DNA of 41,736 bases, taken from NCBI GenBank assembly GCA_017619375.1, contig JAFZSL010000029.1, forward strand, positions 1 through 41,736, read 5' to 3'. The translations under genes and the position numbers were made by a program. Of the stretch, positions 2,987 through 41,724 are shown piece by piece. This stretch comes from Prevotella sp. Lineage in GTDB: Bacteria; Bacteroidota; Bacteroidia; Bacteroidales; Bacteroidaceae. Within the stretch, counting starts at the first letter, position 1. The number at the start of each line of letters is the position of its first letter. The notes below the pieces were generated by a model, which saw nothing but the letters and a program-made list of their open reading frames with translations, was not told the DNA's origin and ran no database searches.

Positions 2987-2992
2987 ATACTT

Positions 2993-3027
2993 CAATATTC
3001 AATATTCAATATTCAATATTCAATCTT
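2993..3027. repeat. Heptanucleotide tandem repeat (CAATATT)4 CAATCTT
   Basis: Five 7-base units fill most of the 55-base gap between the susD stop and the ATG of the downstream SusC-like gene. The array ends 6 bases before that ATG, so it occupies the ribosome-binding position. A change in copy number would shift the spacing between the two cistrons without touching either reading frame. Confidence 0.85.
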
Positions 3028-3041
3028 CTATATCCAATCTC

Positions 3042-5077: not shown

Positions 5078-8000
5078 TTAAATGTATAGTTTGAATCCTA
5101 TGTTATAACGTCTGACAGTGGGGTAAGCACCCTGTCCGCCACTAAAGTACGAACCGCTGCTGGTCATATTGCTCTCACGGTCATCGGGCATCTTTGTGAT
5201 AAGTAAGAGGTTGTTGCCATTCAAGTAAATCTTCAAACTGGTGAAACCAAGTTTCTTGATCCAGCCCTTGGTCCATGTGTAAGCGATTTCCACATTCTTC
5301 AGTCGGAAATAGGAACCGTCGAAGAGGAATTGCGTACCGTTGTTGTAGGCAACCTGGGTGGTGAAGCGTGGTACAACGACTTCGCCATCACCGTCAACAG
5401 GATTCCACCACTTGCCGGTGTCATATACGGTGAGAAGTTGGTCGGGGAAAGAAGTGAGCGTTACGTCACGGGTGACGCCTGTTACGCCATACAACTGTGC
5501 AAACATGCTGAAACCCTTCCACTCCCAGCCGATTGTGGCATTGTAAGTGTGCTCTGGAGTTCCGGTATAGCCGAATGGGGCCTGGTCGTTGGTCTCGTCA
5601 ACGACACCATCGCCATTGAAGTCAACGATGTAATGGTCGCCGATGAGCACTTGTTCATCACTCGTCTGACGCTCTGGCGTACTATAAAGTTCGTCGTAGG
5701 TCTTGATATAGCCGTTGTCTATGAATGACCAGACTTGTCCTTGAGAATATCCTTGAGCCTTGCGGTAATTGGGAATCAAGGCGGGGTCGTCCTTCAACTT
5801 GATGACGTTGTGCGCATATGTGTAGTTGGTGTTTGCCCAAAAACGCATACCGTTTCTCAACACCTTGTTGAAGCGAACCTCAATTTCAAAACCAGTGTTC
5901 TTGATCTTACCCTTGTTGATGTCCGGGGTCTTGTATGCACCATAGTACGAAGGTACGGATCGGTCGGATCCGTAAATGAAGATGTCATAACGGTCATCGC
6001 GGAACCAATCGAAACTACCTGCAAACATACCATTGAGGACGGCATAGTCGAAACCTATGTTCTTCTTCTGCACCGTTGCCCAACGGAGGTCTGGGTTGGC
6101 AATGCTGGCCTCCCTGTAACTGACAAAATTGCTTGAAGAACCATCAAGGTTCATATTGAAGCCATTACCGTTATTCAATACTTCCCAACTGGTGAGGTAA
6201 GCCCAGCGGTCACCTGCGCTGTCGTCACCGATTTCACCAATGGAGCCACGAATCTTGAACATCTCGACGATTCTCTTGTCAACAAGCCATTTCATGAATT
6301 TCTCTTCAGTAACCATCCAACCGACGGCTCCTGAGCAGAAGAATGCAAAGCGGTTGTCGGGAGAGAACTTCTGCGAACCATTGTAGGCTCCGTTGAATTC
6401 GGCGAAATATCTGTTCTTGAAGTCATAGGTGGTACGGAAGACCCAGTCCTCACGACGGAACTCAAGTTCGGAGTTTGCTGCATTGTTACGACGTTTCCAG
6501 TTGCCCATCAAGGTCACGTTATGTTGGCCGAGCTGACGTCCCCAGTAAAGTTGGAGTGACATTTCCGTTGCACGACTTGTTTGAGAGACATTACCTGCCT
6601 CATGCCACCAGTCGCGCTTTTCAAAGAAGTCGAAACCTGTTGAAGCGAAAATCTCATTCTCGAAAAGAAGTTGGCCGTCCTCGGGTAGGATGTATGCCGT
6701 ATTGTTGACATGGCCGCCACCGGCAGCAGAAATACCACGGTTGCTCTCTCTGAATTGGTTGTCCCAAGAAATCGTACCGCGAGCAACAAGGCCCTTGGTG
6801 ACGAAATCAAGATTCTGTTCGAGAGAGAAGTCGGTGAATATGCGTGTGTTGGTGTTCTGCTCAAAACCTGATGTTGCCACACTCATTGGAGAGTTCGCCA
6901 TGTTGGATGCAGCCAATCTGGAGTAACCCCAGGCACCATTCGAGAATTGGACAGGGAAGACGTTTGGCGGCATGCGATAGGCACCAGCCCATTGTTGCGA
7001 CTGGAAGAACTCGCCACTGTTACCATAATAATAGCGTGGGGTCTTTTGCTGGGCATTGGAACCTGCCAGGTTGACCTTGAACTGGGTGGTCTTCGTGATT
7101 TGGAAGTCCAGGTTCGAGCGGACATTCAAACGATTGTATGAGTAGCCACCTTCATACCCCTGACGGTTGTCCCAAATCCTGGTCATGTCACCTTCGTTCT
7201 GGAAGTCGAAGGCCACAAAATACTTGACGGCCTTTGTACCACCGGAAAGATTGAGGTTGGTGTTATAAGAAAAGGTGTAATTTTTGAACATTTCCTCCTG
7301 CCAGTCAACATTGGGATAACGTTCAGCCTGACTATAGTCGCCGAGGTAGTTGCCATCGACATCATAGTTCGGCCTTACCGTATAGTCCTGGTTGCGGAAA
7401 TTGTTGATGAAGGTCTGAGGACGATAGTATGCCCATGAACCTGCACCGCCCAAGGCGAGCTCGTGCTCGATAGCCTCGTTGCGGAGCATGTAGCCATCGT
7501 AGGAGTCATACTTGCGTGGGAGTTTCGAGACGGCCTTCAAGGTGGCGTTGAAGCCTACATCAATCCTTGCCTTGCCTTCCTGCCCGCGCTTCGTAGTGAT
7601 AAGGATGACGCCGTTGGCACCTTCCACACCGTAAACGGCGGTGGCAGAGGCATCTTTCAACACAGAGATGGTTGCCACAGATGTGATGTCAACGGACTGA
7701 ATCTCACGCTTCACACCATCGACGAGGATAAGAGGTTGGGCATCTTGGTTCCAAGCTGCTGCACCACGAATGTAAATTCGGGGGTCCTCTTCACCAGGCT
7801 GACCTGTAGAAGCAATCGTGGCGATACCGGGGAGGTTACCCGTGAGGGCCGCACCGACACTACCGATACCTGCAGCGCGTTCAAGGACTTCACCTGTGGT
7901 CTGGGTGATGGCACCCACCACAGATGCTTTTTTCTGTTGGCCGTAACCTACCACAACCACTTCTTCCAATGTGGCGTCTTCAGAGAGCGATACACTGATG

Positions 8001-13567: not shown

Positions 13568-14392
13568 ATGAGTTATAAAACGAAATTGAAAATCGGAGAG
13601 TTCTCACGGTTGATGCAGGTTACAGTAAAAACCTTGCGTCACTATGAACAGAAGGGATTGCTGTTACCTGACGAAGTGGACGAGTGGACTGGATACCGTT
13701 ACTATAGCATCGACCAGATGCAGAAGTTGCAAACCATCCGCGACCTGCAACGACTCGGTTTCTCATTGGATGAAATAAAGGATTTGTTCGAGGACAACTC
13801 ACATGTTCCAAGCATCCGGCAACTGACTGAGAAAATCAAGGAAACGGAAACGCAACTGAAAAAACTGATTGCCCGTCGCAACCGACTGCTCAACTGGAGG
13901 AACGCTCGCAAAGAAATGAAAACAATGGAAAAATTCAGCATTCAGTCTCTGCCAGAAATCATTGTGGCAAGTCATCGTGAAGTCATCCCTGATTTCGCCG
14001 CCATCGGTCCCATGTGTGTCAATATGATTGGTCCTGAGATGCAACGCCTCGGCTGCAAGTGCCCACCTCCGGGCTACTGCTTCACCATTGAGCATAACAA
14101 GGAATACACCCCTACAGACATCGACCTCGAGTATTGCGAACAGGTGGAGGAAATGGGTGAAGACAGCGCCATCATCCAGTTCAAGCGTCTGCCAGCAGTC
14201 CCCAAGGCGCTATGTATGAAACACTACGGACCATATGAACGCTTTTACGAGTCCTTCACAGAAGCTTTCCGCTATATCGAAGAGCAAGGCTATAAAGTCA
14301 TCGGCCAGCACCGCACCTGTTATATCGACGGTGTCTGGAACCAGGAAGATCCTGAGAAATGGCTTTCTATCATTCAGATTCCGATAGAATAA
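13568..14392 (+). CDS. MerR family regulator with GyrI-like effector-binding domain
   Basis: A 274-residue transcriptional regulator. The N-terminal MerR helix-turn-helix (about 8-75) shows IGEFSRLMQVTVKTLRHYEQ, the wing LLLPDEVDEWTGYRYY and QLQRLGFSLDEIKDLF-type sequence. A coiled-coil linker follows (about 80-112, KIKETETQLKKLIARRNRLL). A GyrI/AraC-type effector-binding domain (about 123-274) includes RLPAVPKALCMKHYGPYE and ends EKWLSIIQIPIE. The architecture is that of BmrR/BltR-like multidrug-sensing activators. No transporter is next to it; the nearest efflux operon starts about 14 kb downstream on the other strand. The ligand is unknown. Confidence 0.92.
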   Translation: MSYKTKLKIGEFSRLMQVTVKTLRHYEQKGLLLPDEVDEWTGYRYYSIDQMQKLQTIRDLQRLGFSLDEIKDLFEDNSHVPSIRQLTEKIKETETQLKKLIARRNRLLNWRNARKEMKTMEKFSIQSLPEIIVASHREVIPDFAAIGPMCVNMIGPEMQRLGCKCPPPGYCFTIEHNKEYTPTDIDLEYCEQVEEMGEDSAIIQFKRLPAVPKALCMKHYGPYERFYESFTEAFRYIEEQGYKVIGQHRTCYIDGVWNQEDPEKWLSIIQIPIE

Positions 14393-14464
14393 ATGATTGA
14401 CAATGAGATTAGAACCAGCGACACGAAAGACAAACAGTAATAGATTTGGAATTACAATAACGCT

Positions 14465-14809
14465 ATGGATACAATAAAAAACAACCCACTGATGATTGCC
14501 GCTTGTGGCCTATATTGTGGAGCATGCAGAAAATTCTTGAACGGGAAATGCCCTGGATGCAAGGAGAACGAGAAGGCTTCATGGTGCAAGATACGCAAGT
14601 GCTGTCAGGAAAAAGGCATCCATACTTGTGCTGAATGTGAAAAAGACGTGAAGGAATGCAAGATTCACAACAACTTTGTCGGAAAACTGTTTGCCTTCTT
14701 GTTCAACAGCGACAGGGCTGCCTGCATCCATTATATACGTGAATACGGCGAGGACTCCTTCGCCAAAAAGATGACAGAAGACAAACAAATGACGATGAAG
14801 AAGAGATGA
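14465..14809 (+). CDS. DUF3795 cysteine-rich protein
   Basis: A 114-residue soluble protein with the DUF3795 pattern. It opens AACGLYCGACRKFLNGKCPG, continues KENEKASWCKIRKCCQEKGI and ends its cysteine set at CAECEKDVKECKIHN. There are 13 cysteines in about 110 residues, mostly in CxxC-like pairs, suggesting a metal or zinc-ribbon-like centre. The family's function is unknown. It follows the MerR gene after 72 bases on the same strand and could share its transcript. A small hairpin follows the stop. Confidence 0.88.
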   Translation: MDTIKNNPLMIAACGLYCGACRKFLNGKCPGCKENEKASWCKIRKCCQEKGIHTCAECEKDVKECKIHNNFVGKLFAFLFNSDRAACIHYIREYGEDSFAKKMTEDKQMTMKKR

Positions 14810-14830
14810 ACTTCCTTCGGAGTTCTTCTT
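14808..14830 (+). terminator. Weak hairpin after DUF3795
   Basis: GAACTTCC-TTC-GGAGTTC forms a short stem with one bulge, followed by the pyrimidine-rich TTCTT. It overlaps the last base of the stop codon. It is a weak intrinsic terminator candidate. Confidence 0.35.
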
Positions 14831-14889
14831 GAAGACCATGTGCTTCTACAGCGGTACTTCGAAATCATTTATCAGTTGAAGGAAAAGTT

Positions 14890-15930
14890 ATGAACATACC
14901 TAAAAGGGAAAGATTCGAAATGTTGGACCAGTTCTTGCAGAAAGGTTCGCATACCACTTCGCAACTCCACCAATTGGTCAACAAGGAATTGGAAGACCTG
15001 GGGATGGAGAAGGTCACGTTGCGGGCCATTCAGAAAGACTTGAAGGAAATGGCCGAGAGATACAAGGCTCCCATCAATTTCATGGGAAGATTTCGGTATT
15101 ATACGGAAGATTACACTTTGTTCCCGGAGAACATGTCCGAGAAAGAACATGAACTTATTGCTGAAGTGCTGAGAACTTTGGGGATGTTTGACGGACTCAA
15201 GGATTTCGAGTGGATACAAAAATACATGATCGGTCTCGATGCCGATAGAAGACCGCCGATTCTCAGCTTTTCGTCAACTGCGGAGTTGAAGGGGACCCAA
15301 TGGCTTCCGCGACTTTTCGATGTCATTGTGAATAGGCAGGTCATCAAACTGACCTACAAGCCATTTAATGGAAAAATCAAAGAACATGTCCTTCATCCAT
15401 ATTTATTGAAAGAATATAATAATAGATGGTTCTTGATAGGTGCCATCGACGGCAACGATTTTATCATTACTTTTGCCATTGACCGTATCAAGGATTTTCG
15501 CATCATGGATAAAATTGCTTATCGTGATTATGCCGATGGCGACATCAATGATAGGTTCACCGACCTCATTGGGGTGACGCTTCGTAAGGATGCCAAATTG
15601 GAACATATCATCATCTGGGTCGATGATGTCACTTTCAACTATGTGAATACAAAACACATCACCAGATTCCAAACCAATTTGATAGGTCAAAAGGAAAAGG
15701 ATTTACGAGCCATGTATCCACAATTGGAGGGAGGGCGTTTTATCGATTTGTACACTTATGTTTGTGAGTTGAATGGCGAGCCGGATGACAAATACAAGAA
15801 CTATGAGTTGGTTCGTGAGTTGAGTTCTTACGCTGGAGGTCTTTTAGTGTTGACTCCCAAATACCTCCAAAACCAGATCTTCGAGAAAATTGCTGCCCAC
15901 AAAGATAGATATTCCTTGATACGGACATGA
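14890..15930 (+). CDS. WYL domain-containing transcriptional regulator
   Basis: A 346-residue regulator. A winged helix-turn-helix occupies about residues 1-65 (ERFEMLDQFLQKG, then VTLRAIQKDLKEMAERY). The WYL sensor domain (about 138-212) includes LTYKPFNGKIKEHVLHPYLL, NNRWFLIGAIDGNDFIITFA and the basic IDRIKDFRIMD end. A C-terminal WCX-like region (about 240-340) carries TLRKDAKLEHIIIWV and SYAGGLLVLTPKYLQNQI. WYL proteins bind nucleotides or nucleic acids and often control defence or DNA-damage genes. No defence system was recognised next to it. The ATG at 14890 is preceded by the purine-rich AAGGAAAAG. Confidence 0.92.
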   Translation: MNIPKRERFEMLDQFLQKGSHTTSQLHQLVNKELEDLGMEKVTLRAIQKDLKEMAERYKAPINFMGRFRYYTEDYTLFPENMSEKEHELIAEVLRTLGMFDGLKDFEWIQKYMIGLDADRRPPILSFSSTAELKGTQWLPRLFDVIVNRQVIKLTYKPFNGKIKEHVLHPYLLKEYNNRWFLIGAIDGNDFIITFAIDRIKDFRIMDKIAYRDYADGDINDRFTDLIGVTLRKDAKLEHIIIWVDDVTFNYVNTKHITRFQTNLIGQKEKDLRAMYPQLEGGRFIDLYTYVCELNGEPDDKYKNYELVRELSSYAGGLLVLTPKYLQNQIFEKIAAHKDRYSLIRT

Positions 15931-15956
15931 AAAACCGCAACAATGTAGCGTATAAA

Positions 15957-15980
15957 GGAGACGGAGAGAATCTCGTCTCC
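15957..15980. other. Stem-loop after the WYL regulator
   Basis: GGAGACGGAGA pairs with TCTCGTCTCC across a GAA loop, with one bulged G. It lies 27 bases after the WYL stop. No T-run follows, so it may be a 3' end stabiliser rather than an intrinsic terminator. Confidence 0.5.
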
Positions 15981-16027
15981 ACAAGTTAGCATACTGAGTG
16001 CCGTGATCAAAAGGCCCGTGCTCATAT

Positions 16028-16068
16028 CCCCGCAGGGGGGCACCACCACTCCGATGATTCGTGGTGCC
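16028..16068. other. GC-rich double stem-loop
   Basis: CCCC-GCA-GGGG (16028-16038) is followed immediately by GGCACCAC (16039-16046) pairing with GTGGTGCC (16061-16068). It is unlike the surrounding AT-rich spacers. It could be an RNA structure, a terminator remnant or the edge of a lost element. Confidence 0.45.
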
Positions 16069-16109
16069 TCCTTCCTCAGACTTTGTACTCCTGAATCAAA
16101 CAGACATAT

Positions 16110-16164
16110 GTCTCTTTAACTCCCCTTTAACTCCTCTTTAACTCCCCTTTAACTCCTCTTTAAC
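16110..16164. repeat. 11-base tandem repeat, TCCCCTTTAAC alternating with TCCTCTTTAAC
   Basis: After a partial unit at 16110-16120, four 11-base units alternate strictly between TCCCCTTTAAC and TCCTCTTTAAC (16121-16164), giving a 22-base higher-order period. Two more TCCCCTTTAAC units lie at 16839-16860 on the other side of the MmcQ/YjbR gene. Confidence 0.88.
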
Positions 16165-16268
16165 TCCATCTCCCCTCCGAGCGGGCACTTGCAACCGAAA
16201 ATCGTTCCCCTTTAGCTGAAAAAAATCAAAAAAACGTAGTTTTTATTGTTTGGATGGATTTTTATACT

Positions 16269-16276
16269 TAATTTTG
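16269..16276 (+). promoter_or_regulatory. -7 box for the MmcQ/YjbR gene
   Basis: TAATTTTG matches TAnnTTTG and lies 25 bases before the ATG at 16302. A degenerate -33 element (ATTG, 16245-16248) sits 20 bases upstream. Confidence 0.5.
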
Positions 16277-16301
16277 TGGGAGAACGTAAAAAGATAACTC
16301 A

Positions 16302-16649
16302 ATGAACATCGAGGAAGTGCGTGAATATGCCTTAACACTGAAAGGAACCACGGAGGACATGCCGTATGGCTCCGATTGGTTGGCCTTCCGTATAGGAGGG
16401 AAGATATTCTTGCATATATGGCTCGAATCACCCGAACCCGTCTGCGCCGTCAAACTGCTGCCACAAATGGGACAACAACTGAGAGAGCGGTATGAGGGAG
16501 TGCGTCCTGCCTATCACCTGAACAAGGCTCATTGGAACGACATCTATTTGGAAATGATGGATGACACCCTTGTCAGGCAGTGGATTCGTGACTCATACAA
16601 GTTGGTGCTGTCCGGACTGCCAAAACGGTTGAGGGAGGAGTTCGAATGA
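16302..16649 (+). CDS. MmcQ/YjbR family protein
   Basis: A 115-residue, full-length member of the MmcQ/YjbR (CyaY-like DNA-binding fold) family. It shows the family pattern throughout: EVREYALTLKGTTEDMPYG at the start, AFRIGGKIFLHIWL, AVKLLPQMGQQLRERYEGV, AYHLNKAHWNDIYLE, and the C-terminal DSYKLVLSGLPKRLR. Family members are thought to bind DNA in a sequence-independent way; the physiological role is unclear. The gene stands alone, framed by TCCCCTTTAAC repeats on both sides, with its own -7 box. Confidence 0.92.
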   Translation: MNIEEVREYALTLKGTTEDMPYGSDWLAFRIGGKIFLHIWLESPEPVCAVKLLPQMGQQLRERYEGVRPAYHLNKAHWNDIYLEMMDDTLVRQWIRDSYKLVLSGLPKRLREEFE

Positions 16650-16838
16650 CACAATGGTAACTCATACAATCCGTCTTGTTGACTACAACCTTGTTTCAAA
16701 CCCTCCATGCGCACTGTAGTGCCGGGTCTTGTGCCCGTCTGAATTGTTATTCTATTACTCCCAATCGGTCGTGGGTCTTCGACAAATCTATAGAATACGT
16801 GATGACAACTATATTATCGGGCTGGCAAGTTGACATAC

Positions 16839-16860
16839 TCCCCTTTAACTCCCCTTTAAC
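16839..16860. repeat. Two copies of the 11-base repeat TCCCCTTTAAC
   Basis: Two perfect adjacent units of the same 11-mer seen at 16121-16164, in the same orientation, on the other side of the MmcQ/YjbR gene. Confidence 0.85.
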
Positions 16861-16893
16861 AGAAGGCTATGTCTAACCATTTTTTTTTTTTTT

Positions 16894-16928
16894 GCGAACA
16901 TGACGTTCGCGAAAACCCTCTATCTTTG
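16894..16928 (+). promoter_or_regulatory. -7 box with upstream inverted repeat for the HD/DnaE-like pair
   Basis: TATCTTTG (16921-16928) matches TAnnTTTG and is followed by the HD gene ATG 30 bases later. Just upstream, GCGAAC-ATGAC-GTTCGC (16894-16910) is a 17-base inverted repeat sitting between the usual -33 and -7 positions and following a poly-T run. This is a plausible operator. No -33 TTTG occurs at standard spacing; the nearest is 26 bases away. Confidence 0.55.
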
Positions 16929-16958
16929 CACTATGAAAAACCCAATATATGAAGTCTT

Positions 16959-17576
16959 ATGAATAATCATGTTGACAATAAAAAAGAGGAGTTTTGCCGA
17001 CGTTTGCGTTTGACAAATCGGGACGGTGTAGAGCAAATCATCACGTTTTTGGATGACCTTGGCTTTTTTACGGCACCGGCGAGCACCCGCTTTCACCTCA
17101 ACCATGAGGGTGGCCTTGTGGAACATTCTTTAAATGTATGTGATGTGGCCTTGGACATTCGTGAGGCGATAGTGAAGAGAAATGACGACTTGGAAGACAG
17201 GCTTCATGTCGACAGTGTTGTAATTGCCGCACTGCTCCATGATGTCTGCAAGGCTGACATCTATCGTCCTTTATCTCGTCGATTCGAGAAAGTGGCCAAT
17301 GTATTCGGTTTGGGGAACAAGATTCCACCATATCGTGTGGATTATGGAGACCACCCGTTCGGGCATGGTGAGAAGTCGGTCATCTTATTGCTCAAAAATG
17401 GTTTGGAAATGACCGATGACGAGATGCTGGCCATCCGTTGGCATATGAGTGCTTGGAATCTGCCTTTCCAAGCTTCGGAAATCTTGGGTAATTTCAACAA
17501 GGCGAAAGCAATCAGTCCTCTCGTCACGCTGATACAGTCTGCTGATGAGTTGGCTTCACAGATTATGGAAAGATGA
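16959..17576 (+). CDS. HD domain-containing phosphohydrolase-like protein
   Basis: A 205-residue soluble protein with an HD metal-dependent phosphohydrolase fold. Metal ligands visible in order are H56 (GGLVEHSLNV), H94-D95 (AALLHDVCKAD), H136 (GHGEKSV), H162 (IRWHMSAW) and D196 (QSADELAS), so the active site looks intact. The family acts on phosphate esters, often nucleotides; the substrate is unknown. The stop overlaps the ATG of the next gene (ATGA at 17573-17576), so the two are translationally coupled. A -7 box and inverted repeat lie upstream. The partner resembles an inactivated DnaE palm, which makes a nucleic-acid or nucleotide role plausible but unproven. Confidence 0.9.
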   Translation: MNNHVDNKKEEFCRRLRLTNRDGVEQIITFLDDLGFFTAPASTRFHLNHEGGLVEHSLNVCDVALDIREAIVKRNDDLEDRLHVDSVVIAALLHDVCKADIYRPLSRRFEKVANVFGLGNKIPPYRVDYGDHPFGHGEKSVILLLKNGLEMTDDEMLAIRWHMSAWNLPFQASEILGNFNKAKAISPLVTLIQSADELASQIMER

Positions 17577-18319
17577 TTGGCCATTTATCACAAACCTTAG
17601 GAAAAATGAAAGAAAACCAGATTAACATGCATTGGCCCAAAATGGAATTCCCTGCAGGATTCGAGGATGCTGAATCCTATCTCAGGCACCTCGTTGAGGA
17701 AGGGGCCAAGAGAAGGTACGGCGACATTGATTCGTTGGTGGCGGCAAGGGTGGATGAAGAATTGTGTCGCTTTAAAGGCTTTGAACCCTATTTCCTGGTC
17801 CTTCACGACCTTGTGGAGTTTTGCAAAGGCAAAAATATCTTTGTTTCTGTGCTCTTCCGGAGTGCCACATGTTCCATTGTCAACTATTGCTTGGGGATAA
17901 CGACGGTCGACCCTATTCTAAATGGACTGTCATTTGAACTATTCTTCTTGAATACAGACAAGGATTCACCTTATTTTAGATTGATGGTGAACATGGATGA
18001 CCTTGGATTAGTCATTTATCACTTGGAAAAGAAATATGGCTTTGGCTGTGTGTCGAAAGTGTATGATGGCTACAAGGATTACAAAACGTATTATGGCGAT
18101 TTCATCCGCGTACCTTCGGTCGATTCTTCTTGCATCTTTTTTTTCGACAAGCCGTTTCAAGAAGCCGTGGGGGCCATCTCGGTAGAAGGGGGATTTTTTT
18201 ATCCCGAGGAGGAAATTCCCAAGTATTCCAAAGAGATATTGGATGAATTGGGGTATATGCATATTGACTTTTGCCTTTATTATGACTCGGATGATATTAT
18301 TGATGACCTTAGTTGTTGA
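17573..18319 (+). CDS. Short protein resembling an inactivated DNA polymerase III alpha (DnaE) palm
   Basis: A 248-residue protein whose order of motifs follows C-family polymerase DnaE. YLRHLVEEGAKRRYG (36-50) resembles the sequence before the palm, and RVDEELCRFKGFEPYFLVLHD (from about 59) the stretch usually read as MGFPGYFLIV. VSVLFRSATCS (91-101) stands where GPGRGSxAG is expected, then NYCLGITTVDP (104-114) and LSFELFFLN (119-127). FRLMVNMDD (135-143) replaces the catalytic PDIDIDF, losing both aspartates. MHIDFCL (229-235) resembles the third-aspartate region and keeps its D. PHP, thumb, fingers and OB parts are missing (normal DnaE exceeds 1100 residues). It overlaps the HD gene by 4 bases. 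M12 at 17606 is an alternative start. It is not a simple truncation: the frame is intact and several motifs are rewritten. The DnaE relation is my reading and is unsearched. Confidence 0.6.
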   Translation: MIGHLSQTLGKMKENQINMHWPKMEFPAGFEDAESYLRHLVEEGAKRRYGDIDSLVAARVDEELCRFKGFEPYFLVLHDLVEFCKGKNIFVSVLFRSATCSIVNYCLGITTVDPILNGLSFELFFLNTDKDSPYFRLMVNMDDLGLVIYHLEKKYGFGCVSKVYDGYKDYKTYYGDFIRVPSVDSSCIFFFDKPFQEAVGAISVEGGFFYPEEEIPKYSKEILDELGYMHIDFCLYYDSDDIIDDLSC

Positions 18320-18386
18320 GGTGAAACAAAAAGTGTGAATTGTAAATAAATATGCTAAACAAACAACATGATAAATTGAAACGAAT

Positions 18387-18698
18387 ATGGAATCAAGAAT
18401 TTCGTTAATTGTAAAGCTTGCACTTGCTGCATTGCTGATGCTATGCCTGGCAGACATGCCTTATGGCTTTTATCAATTAGTCAGGTTTATAGCCATGGTG
18501 TCTTTCGCCTATTTTTCCTACGAGTTTTTCAAGGACGAGAAGGACAAACTGGGATTTGCTTTTGCTGCATTGGCATTGTTGTTCCAGCCTTTTTTCAAGA
18601 TTACGTTAGGACGGACCATTTGGAACGTTCTTGACGTGGTGGTTGCCATAGGATTGGCTTGGCTGGCCATCATGGCTTTTAGGAAAAAGAACGAATGA
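18387..18698 (+). CDS. DUF6804-type small membrane protein
   Basis: A 103-residue protein with four hydrophobic segments (about 7-22, 30-46, 54-68 and 76-97). The pattern YGFYQLVRFIAMVSFAYFSY followed by LALLFQPFFKITLGRTIWN and VVVAIGLAWL is that of a small Bacteroidetes/proteobacterial membrane family (I recall it as DUF6804). The function is unknown. It lies 67 bases after the DnaE-like gene on the same strand and is followed by a strong bidirectional terminator, so it may end that transcript. Confidence 0.75.
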   Translation: MESRISLIVKLALAALLMLCLADMPYGFYQLVRFIAMVSFAYFSYEFFKDEKDKLGFAFAALALLFQPFFKITLGRTIWNVLDVVVAIGLAWLAIMAFRKKNE

Positions 18699-18727
18699 AC
18701 ACTTAGACCTAACGGGGTTTGCAATAG

Positions 18728-18764
18728 AAAAATCTGGCGTATGGAAACCATGCACCAGATTTTT
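18728..18764. terminator. Bidirectional intrinsic terminator
   Basis: AAAAATCTGG and CCAGATTTTT are perfect 10-base arms, with an inner ATGG/CCAT pair around AAA. The A-run on one side and T-run on the other let it stop transcription from both the plus-strand DUF6804 gene and the minus-strand efflux operon that converge here. Confidence 0.9.
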
Positions 18765-18811
18765 AATCATTAGAAAGTGACGTCGCCTAAGTCGATGAAG
18801 TGAGATGGAGC

Positions 18812-20254
18812 TTACTTGGTGCCTCCTCCAAGGGCGATGTATAAGGCGATGACGGCCTGAGCACCATTGTACATGTTCATCGCTTCACTGAGCTGGGCGT
18901 TGAGCAGGCTTTCCTGAGCGGTAAGCACTTCCAGATAGTTGGATTTGCCGTTGTCCATCAGTTCGTGGGTTCCCATATAAGCTTCGCGCAGCACCTCCAC
19001 TTGCCTATGGTAGTAGGCATGTTTCTCACGCGCTGCCTGACAGTCTGCCAAAGCTTCGTTCACTTGGTTGCCGGCATCAATGACAGTCTGCACGTACTTG
19101 TGTTGCAGGTCTTCCTCCGTGAGTTGGGCAATCCTATGGTTGGCCTTGATGGTGCCGCGGGCAAAGATGGGCTGTGTGAGTTGGGCCACGGCGTTGAGCA
19201 ATATCTTGCCGGGATTCACTGTGCCTTCCCTATTGGTCCATCCGACAACACCTTGTAATGTGACGTTTGGGAAGAATGCCGCGCGGGCTGCCTTGGTGTT
19301 ATAGAATGCTTCCTCCATGGCGAAATTGGCCATGCGGATGTCGGGGCGCTTTTGAAGCACCTCGGCAGGAACACCAATCTTGATGAACTTCGTGTCAAAC
19401 ATCCTTTGTCCTGTTGTGGAGTCGGAACTTTCAGTAAGGGCGGCACTGCCCCATTGACTGCGTTCTATGTGTTGAGGCGTTTCTGCCAGCAGACGGCAGA
19501 GGGCGTTCTCCACACTGCGTATGTTGCGACGGATATCGACAATCTGGGTCTTCACATTAAGGTAAGAGGACTCCATTTGGTTGACGGCGGTGGAATATAC
19601 CTTTCCATTTTCCCATAATATCTTCTCTGTCTCCAATGAGGCGTTCCAAAGACTGTCGGTGGCTGTCAGGATTACCAACTGGCGGTCGAGGAGTTGCAAC
19701 ATATAATACTGTTGGGCAACGGCGGAGACGAGATTGGATCGGACGGATTCCTCTCGCATCTGGGCCTGCAGCATCACGGCATTGGCAGCACGCTTCTTGT
19801 TGGTGATGGAGCCAAACAAGTCGGCGTCCCAACTGACTTGAAGCGGCATGTTATAGGCTTTGCTGACGGGACCGAAGTCGAAACTTGACAATGAACCAGA
19901 CGGCGAGAAGTAGAGCGATGGCAGGTAGCCCATCTTGGCGGCTTTCAATGACTCCAAGCTCTTTTCCACGGCAATGCAGGCGGAATTCAAGTCGGTGTTG
20001 TTGGCCAGCACTTGGTCGATGAGCTTTTGCAGCAATGGATCGGTGAAGAAGTCACGCCATGAGATGTCTGCCAAAGAGCCGTTGGTAGGATAATCTTCTA
20101 AATCATCACTTGTGCCGTATGCATTGGCTGTAACCTTTGCTTGTGACTCATACTCGCCATGCAAAACTTTCGCTTCTTTATACAAACCGCAGCCCGTGAG
20201 CAAGATGCTCACGGTGGCTGCAGCCATCATTATTTTTGAAACGTTCTTCATCAT
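18812..20254 (-). CDS. RND efflux outer membrane factor lipoprotein (NodT/OprM family)
   Basis: This is the TolC-like channel that carries the efflux pump's substrates across the outer membrane. The 480-residue protein has a lipoprotein signal with lipobox LLTGC (C22). Its two outer-membrane-efflux repeats are about residues 60-260 and 275-475. WRDFFTDPLLQKLIDQVLANN opens the first, VSWDADLFGSITNKK is the OprM/NodT core motif, and PAEVLQKRPDIRMANF opens the second. It ends with YLEVLTAQESLLNAQ and the terminal ALGGG. It is the last gene of the operon, separated from pump genes by an inserted secreted-protein gene and a small peptide gene. The ATG is preceded by a heptamer repeat array. Confidence 0.95.
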   Translation of the reverse strand: MMKNVSKIMMAAATVSILLTGCGLYKEAKVLHGEYESQAKVTANAYGTSDDLEDYPTNGSLADISWRDFFTDPLLQKLIDQVLANNTDLNSACIAVEKSLESLKAAKMGYLPSLYFSPSGSLSSFDFGPVSKAYNMPLQVSWDADLFGSITNKKRAANAVMLQAQMREESVRSNLVSAVAQQYYMLQLLDRQLVILTATDSLWNASLETEKILWENGKVYSTAVNQMESSYLNVKTQIVDIRRNIRSVENALCRLLAETPQHIERSQWGSAALTESSDSTTGQRMFDTKFIKIGVPAEVLQKRPDIRMANFAMEEAFYNTKAARAAFFPNVTLQGVVGWTNREGTVNPGKILLNAVAQLTQPIFARGTIKANHRIAQLTEEDLQHKYVQTVIDAGNQVNEALADCQAAREKHAYYHRQVEVLREAYMGTHELMDNGKSNYLEVLTAQESLLNAQLSEAMNMYNGAQAVIALYIALGGGTK

Positions 20255-20273
20255 TGGTTATGATTATAGAATT

Positions 20274-20336
20274 ATCAATCTCCAATCTTAAATCTTAAAT
20301 CTTAAATCTCCAATTTCCAATCTTAAATCTTCAATT
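20274..20336. repeat. Heptanucleotide tandem repeat, nine units (TYMAATY family)
   Basis: Nine consecutive 7-base units can be phased without a break: ATCAATC, TCCAATC, TTAAATC three times, TCCAATT, TCCAATC, TTAAATC and TTCAATT. They fill most of the gap between the acidic-peptide gene and the outer-membrane-factor gene on the minus strand, so the array lies in the leader of the latter. Confidence 0.82.
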
Positions 20337-20341
20337 GAATC

Positions 20342-20509
20342 TCATTCCTCCCAAAGGCGGTTGGCATGATTGGACAGGAGGTCATCTAAATCGTCAACAT
20401 CATCATCGTCGTCTTTGTTATAGACGGGCAGAAAACTATCTTGCATCAAGGCTTCACTGCCAATGAGTTCATGTAATGTCGTTTCGGGAATCAAATATGT
20501 TTTTTTCAT
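20342..20509 (-). CDS. Small acidic peptide of the MKKTYLIPET type
   Basis: A 55-residue peptide starting MKKTYLIPETTLHELIG. This N-terminus is common among short Bacteroidales peptides of unknown role. The middle and end are strongly acidic (NKDDDDDVDDLDDLLS, 31-46; 10 of 14 residues from 33 are Asp). No signal peptide, membrane helix or cysteine is seen. ATG at 20509 is preferred because GGAGAAAACA precedes it; the ATG at 20536 would add nine residues. It is encoded inside the efflux operon, between the secreted protein and the outer-membrane channel. Its function is unknown. An acidic metal-binding or leader-type precursor peptide are both possible; neither is shown. Confidence 0.7.
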   Translation of the reverse strand: MKKTYLIPETTLHELIGSEALMQDSFLPVYNKDDDDDVDDLDDLLSNHANRLWEE

Positions 20510-39743: not shown

Positions 39744-39936
39744 AAATCGTGGCACAAGCGAGTGAAAAAGACGGAAAACTTGTTTTCCTGGTCTTTTTCC
39801 GAGCGCCAGTCGATTCAACGCAGTTAAATCGTGGTACAAGCGAGTGAAAAAGACGGAAAACTTGTTTTCCTGGTCTTTTTCCGAGCGCCAGACGATTCAA
39901 CGCAGTTAAATCGTGGTACAAGCGAGAGAAAAATGA
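39744..39936. repeat. 82-base tandem repeat (about 2.4 copies) with a hairpin in each full copy
   Basis: Units start at 39744, 39826 and 39908, an exact 82-base period, beginning AAATCGTGGYACAAGCGAG. The first two full units differ at only a couple of positions; the third is truncated and diverges after about 28 bases. Each full unit contains GAAAAAGACGGAAAAC pairing with GTTTTCCTGGTCTTTTTC, a long stem with a 2-base bulge and a TT loop. Such a unit reads as a dispersed palindromic element duplicated in place. Confidence 0.85.
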
Positions 39937-41545: not shown

Positions 41546-41608
41546 TCAATCTTCAATCTTCAATCTTCAATCTTCAATTTTCAATTTTCAATCTTCAATT
41601 TTCAATCT
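41546..41608. repeat. Heptanucleotide tandem repeat, nine units TCAATYT
   Basis: Nine unbroken 7-base units: TCAATCT four times, TCAATTT twice, TCAATCT, TCAATTT, TCAATCT. The array directly follows the palindromic element. Confidence 0.88.
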
Positions 41609-41724
41609 TGAGCCCACTTGAAAAAGTGGCATAAATTTGATTCGACATAGACCTCCGACTGGTTTTGTTTTCCAGTGTTGGTCGTTAACTTACCGAGCCA
41701 GAGATGGCGAAAATCAGTCTCCAT
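41602..41724 (-). CDS. Possible short ORF at the window end
   Basis: A 40-residue minus-strand frame begins METDFRHLWLGKLTTNTGKQ at 41724 and ends FFKWAQD at a stop inside the heptamer array. An in-frame stop lies 9 bases upstream of the ATG, so it is complete. No family was recognised and no promoter is visible. It may be part of a repeat element or a remnant. The remaining sequence from 41313 to the window end shows no other gene. Confidence 0.2.
   Translation of the reverse strand: METDFRHLWLGKLTTNTGKQNQSEVYVESNLCHFFKWAQD

Follow-up and report, generated by a model that had tools for sequence, protein, structure and literature searches.

ImuB (described in PMC3919608 and PMC12926913) and other inactivated polymerase homologues are dead polymerase folds that are apparently kept without catalysis. 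ImuB is a Y-family protein with a full domain set and a known mutasome, whereas the protein analysed here is of the C-family, consists of a palm only and has no known complex. In the two surveys, PMC12926913 discarded fragments of less than 200 residues and excluded strongly diverged or truncated sequences from its trees, and PMC3919608 removed fragments without an intact active site. Surveys filtered by the active site would miss dead DnaE palms, and a search of titles and abstract openings, mostly in open literature, found no published description of a free-standing one.

We analysed a stretch of 41,736 nucleotides from Prevotella sp. (the window), which is one of the 78 contigs of a genome of 4.26 Mb that is 99.98% complete. 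In the window a 7-base unit of the TCAATCT kind is repeated in tandem at positions 1-33, 20275-20335 and 41546-41609 (and 2991-3038), and thus also at both contig ends, where the repeats may have interrupted the assembly. A further tandem repeat of 82 bases (2.3 copies, 97%) lies at 39744-39933, and a similar sequence is found at positions 6914-7203 of another locus (L076). No tRNAs were found in the window, and an Rfam scan of positions 14000-20500 gave no match.

The palm protein and its active site

The palm gene is located at 17573..18319 on the forward strand, encodes 248 residues and starts within the end of an HD-domain gene (16959..17576, forward strand), the two being joined by an ATGA overlap of stop and start (17573..17576, forward strand) that also occurs in one relative, termed G200 below. 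These frames and their overlap, reported by the initial annotation, were found unchanged in the sequence. The annotation had also derived the 248-residue protein from DnaE, and this homology is well founded: the protein matches PF07733 (DNA_pol3_alpha) at E 4.9e-19, above the gathering score, with residues 35-163 aligned to positions 1-132 of the 260-position profile, and against DnaE chains of known structure it reaches E values as low as 9.1e-14. NCBIfam DnaE models match it to E 4e-23, far below their full-length cut-offs. In Pfam no family other than PF07733 was matched at E 1, and neither a PHP domain nor the fingers domain (PF17657) was detected, the latter being found in relatives of 487 and 656 residues. 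An AlphaFold2 model from a three-row alignment reached a mean pLDDT of 45, which is too low for a fold comparison.

With DnaE-type Pol III alpha the protein shares the N-terminal half of the PF07733 profile, the pre-palm helices, the YCLGIT..DP helix and the third catalytic acid (D/E), and it differs in standing alone at 248 residues, without PHP and fingers and without the first two acids. The active site was compared in an alignment that sets the three palms and three dead forms against dnaE (eight frames from the window's family, the host's own among them, and one from Bacteroides), a form of 656 residues, two of 814 residues and four from phages or plasmids, of which one is an ImuC-type error-prone polymerase. 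At the site of the first two acids (17969..17986, forward strand; residues 133-138, PYFRLM) the PDIDxDF motif is replaced, its two acids corresponding to Y134 and R136 in the window, to Y and T in G200 and to F and T in the second relative, G049. The third acid, within KMDFLGL, is D232 in the window (codon 18266..18268, forward strand), E in G200 and D in G049, so that the proposed loss of two of the three catalytic acids holds in all three orthologues. Counted by eye, the stretch from the conserved KY to the third acid spans 77 residues in the palm and about 144 in the host's own dnaE, so that about 70 palm residues are missing here.

In DnaE a glycine loop holds the incoming triphosphate. 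The GPGRGS loop was indeed found to be rewritten, as the initial annotation had noted, though S97 and S101 remain and are identical in the three orthologues; both fall into the best-kept stretch, RSATCSIVNYCLGITTVDPI (residues 96-115; 17858..17917, forward strand), which is likewise identical in all three. Because this triphosphate-holding loop is mostly rewritten, nucleotide binding by the palm appears doubtful, as does a nucleotide-sensing partnership with the HD protein. The acids of active nucleotidyltransferases are of the hDhDh type, and both are replaced in the palm. Judged from the alignment, ordinary polymerase or nucleotidyltransferase chemistry is excluded by the lost acids.

Distribution, selection and descent of the palm

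Among the matches listed, palm orthologues of high score occur in two of the 298 other genus genomes that were sampled (3/299 with the window's own), the remaining matches being ordinary dnaE or other DnaE-like frames. Each of the three orthologues has 248 residues, with no indel and no stop. Both other palm-bearing genomes (G200 and G049) are metagenome assemblies with a listed contamination of 10 and 7%, respectively. The nearest palm-bearing relatives are the metagenome assemblies Prevotellaceae RUG13201 and, from sheep omasum, Prevotella sp. RGIG6036, and a scan of a public genome collection with patterns made from the three palm sequences, which are palm-specific and would miss remote relatives, returned the same two. 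A family sample (12/399 at E 1e-18) yielded the window's own palm, one 487-residue form and ten long dnaE frames, and a sample of relatives (10/119 at E 1e-22) the window, G049 and eight long frames.

The HD-palm pair had no DNA match among 50,697 phage records. Protein-level matches in phages (636 records) and plasmids (728 records) all stay below 60% identity and, among the matches listed, are DNA polymerases wherever annotated; an origin from phages or plasmids that carry close relatives was rejected on these grounds. Scans of viral contigs with specific queries found no relative. With a general DnaE alignment, 428 of the 509 pattern-matched stretches encoded a relative; by inspection, many of the frames listed from the best 80 of these 428 keep an active-looking acid motif. 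Many DnaE frames in the viral contigs L144-L179 measure about 520-640 residues and are perhaps split or shortened polymerases.

Selection on the palm was assessed by dN/dS from four methods, together with the HD gene, DUF6804, part of the WYL gene and dnaE. The palm values of 0.31-0.52 (window-G200), 0.33-0.45 (window-G049) and 0.45-0.70 (G200-G049) are the highest of the five genes compared, the others lying at 0.12-0.19 (HD; 165 codons, window-G200), 0.15-0.23 (DUF6804), 0.08-0.14 (WYL part) and 0.03-0.08 (dnaE). When neutral change was simulated from the transitions and transversions observed (5000 runs per pair), 0, 0 and 8 runs had as few amino-acid changes as the palm, and 4.2, 4.5 and 1.9 stops were expected where none is seen. 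For the pair G200-G049, 14% of the neutral runs had no stop at all, and the dN/dS of 0.70 was obtained by one method. Among palm positions with a clear DnaE majority, 52 of the 59 that still match it are invariant, against 69 of the 106 that do not (Fisher p 0.0016), and constraint on the palm thus follows the DnaE scaffold. The palm is hence under weak but detectable purifying selection across the three orthologues, about tenfold weaker than that on dnaE and weaker than that on the neighbouring genes. The comparison of synonymous and nonsynonymous rates proposed by the initial annotation therefore places the palm below 1 and above dnaE, and its view of a kept frame rather than debris stands in this weak form, with stops, indels and neutral substitution, the marks of a pseudogene, absent from the palm in the three genomes.

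The host's own dnaE is encoded on a separate contig and is 39% identical to the palm. A tree in which the palms were constrained with four genus dnaE frames gave a p-AU of 0.0195, the group having been chosen after the tree was viewed. A recent partial copy of the host dnaE was rejected on identity, location and this p-AU, and the absence of a flanking or recent duplication, on which the initial annotation had made its reading depend, was confirmed.

Three further dead DnaE-like proteins were found in other genera of the window genome's family, each without a PHP match and with the acids lost: a 487-residue protein with palm and fingers in G450 (L083:9011-10474), a 397-residue one in G479 (L097:8821-10014) and one of 433 residues from the first start in G380 (L098:9702-11003). 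The copies in G479 and G380 share neighbours, and the pair has a dN/dS of 0.27-0.36. These compact proteins resemble the palm in having no PHP, a shortened palm and lost acids, and differ from it in their length (397-487 residues), in keeping sequence beyond the palm and in having no HD gene in their neighbour tables. An order-level search for the trio gave 0/344 genomes at E 1e-40, but it had no known positive and is uninformative. In the alignment, the shortened palm is common to the three palms, the three dead forms and an active-looking 656-residue DnaE-like form in G052, whose frame runs to the contig end, so that the absence of PHP is uncertain for it. Two further active-looking DnaE forms of 814 residues, shorter than dnaE, are encoded at L084:2194-4638 (G260) and L099:8260-10704 (G588), the latter with a DnaB-like helicase and an AAA ATPase nearby. 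In the tree, the palms and the three dead forms come together with a support of 66/92, and a group of these six plus the 656-residue form has 49/66; a constraint of the palms with the 656-residue form alone was weakly rejected (p-AU 0.032). Because neither support is starred and long branches meet in this part of the tree, the grouping of the palms with dead compact DnaE-like forms is a lead, not proof.

The main rival to a kept domain is the decay of a once mobile compact DnaE-like gene, in which case the palm would be a functionless remnant whose frame is still intact by chance and through a recent loss of constraint. The palm's dN/dS, its presence in 3/299 genus genomes among the matches listed, and the breakage of the neighbouring WYL and HD genes in two of the three palm genomes are what such a remnant would leave, but so few neutral runs as conserved as the palm, no stop or indel in three genomes and a constraint that follows the DnaE scaffold are at odds with it. 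We regard slow decay as possible but rather doubtful.

Neighbouring genes and the HD gene

A WYL-domain gene (14890..15930, forward strand; PF13280, E 1.5e-10) lies two genes upstream of the HD gene, and a YjbR-family gene (16302..16649, forward strand; PF04237, E 1.2e-24) lies between them. Downstream of the palm, as in G200, a DUF6804 gene follows (18387..18698, forward strand; PF20619, E 9.9e-29). Upstream of the HD gene, TATCTTTG (16921..16928, forward strand) forms a putative promoter element that resembles the Bacteroidetes -7 box.

Another reading is a part in phage defence, in which the dead palm would mimic a phage DnaE-type polymerase and poison the phage replisome. DnaE-type polymerases are common in viral contigs, the 487-residue dead relative adjoins a WYL gene as the window has one too, and next to the 656-residue form lie genes of the WYL, DEDDh exonuclease and phospholipase-D-like kinds with matches to defence models. 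This support is association only, however: PADLOC models matched neither the palm nor the 487- and 656-residue relatives, and the four window genes scanned against defence models gave at most a WYL and a weak Cas3-HD match. A defence role of this kind thus seems unlikely. The gene of the 656-residue form (L082, G052:C59) has a gene for a 950-residue protein among its neighbours as well, several of which match defence models.

The HD gene encodes a metal-dependent phosphohydrolase of 205 residues (PF01966, E 6.5e-7) that matches PHROG 28876, 'metal-dependent phosphohydrolase', at E 1.1e-28. In an alignment of 32 rows, in which the window gene is counted twice, residues H46, H56, H94, D95, H136, H162 and D196 are invariant, and they include the H...HD...D metal ligands H56, H94, D95 and D196. 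The gene accordingly looks like an active hydrolase by prediction, in agreement with the initial annotation. Like known HD phosphohydrolases (PF01966; PHROG 5889, 28876), it matches over its full length with all family-invariant His and Asp residues; it differs from them in its surroundings, as its relatives are without a palm gene in 29 of 31 loci.

HD relatives occur in 52/299 genus genomes at E 1e-15. The 31 loci comprise 30 that were fetched, the window's included, and a second HD copy of the window's genome, with flanks that mostly span about 1.5 kb; a palm-profile frame stands beside HD in two of them (window and G200), and none was found within the fetched flanks of the other 29. In G200, HD is joined at window position 17079 directly to WYL, of which the 5' part (window 14884-15059) is left, so that HD lacks its first 40 residues while the palm is whole. 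In G049, WYL (to 15472) joins it at 17536, with about 13 HD codons left and the palm again whole. In both genomes the 5' part of WYL thereby runs on into the HD or palm region, with about 2.0 kb deleted in each. As the two junctions differ, the deletions look like two separate events; since both genomes are metagenome assemblies with the contamination given above, misassembly is possible at these junctions. As assembled, the palm outlives HD, and its wholeness where HD is damaged speaks against an obligatory pair. HD is not a fixed partner of the palm, although the two probably share a transcript here.

This leaves the reading of the initial annotation divided: the palm is DnaE-derived and inactivated, its frame is weakly kept and no recent duplication is apparent, but conserved coupling to HD does not stand, as two of 31 HD loci carry a palm and HD is damaged in two of the three palm genomes. 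Its analogy to nucleotidyltransferase plus HD pairings falls with it, both hDhDh acids being replaced and the genes not being conserved together. A single HD-palm complex, with the palm binding nucleotide, DNA or protein and directing the hydrolase, is in our judgement quite improbable, since the ATGA overlap in the window and G200, the intact metal site and the low dN/dS of HD are set against the damaged HD genes beside whole palms, the 29 loci without a palm-profile frame in their fetched flanks and the mostly rewritten triphosphate loop.

A candidate pseudo-polymerase of the C-family

We give about an even chance to the reading that the palm is a domesticated, catalytically dead and free-standing C-family (DnaE-type) palm domain, likely serving as an interaction or decoy module. 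The source of such a domain may be a compact DnaE-like lineage that lacks PHP, rather than the host dnaE. It would act without catalysis, as an interaction module, a role we favour because the acids and the triphosphate loop are lost and the scaffold surface remains. Acting as a regulator or decoy, it would most likely occupy a binding surface that normally meets the palm of Pol III alpha; its target could be the host replisome or phage replication proteins.

More tentatively, the window's family may hold small, PHP-less and dead C-family pseudo-polymerases of a kind not described before, which, without catalysis, would regulate Pol III-type replisomes or serve as decoys for them; the palm of the window is the smallest dead PHP-less C-family form seen in the family. 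The dead relatives in three other genomes (G450, G479 and G380) point to further places to search. A dead DnaE palm that is kept as a protein of its own would demonstrate reuse without catalysis for the replicative polymerase fold as well, and if the pseudo-polymerase group is real, it would be the C-family counterpart of ImuB.
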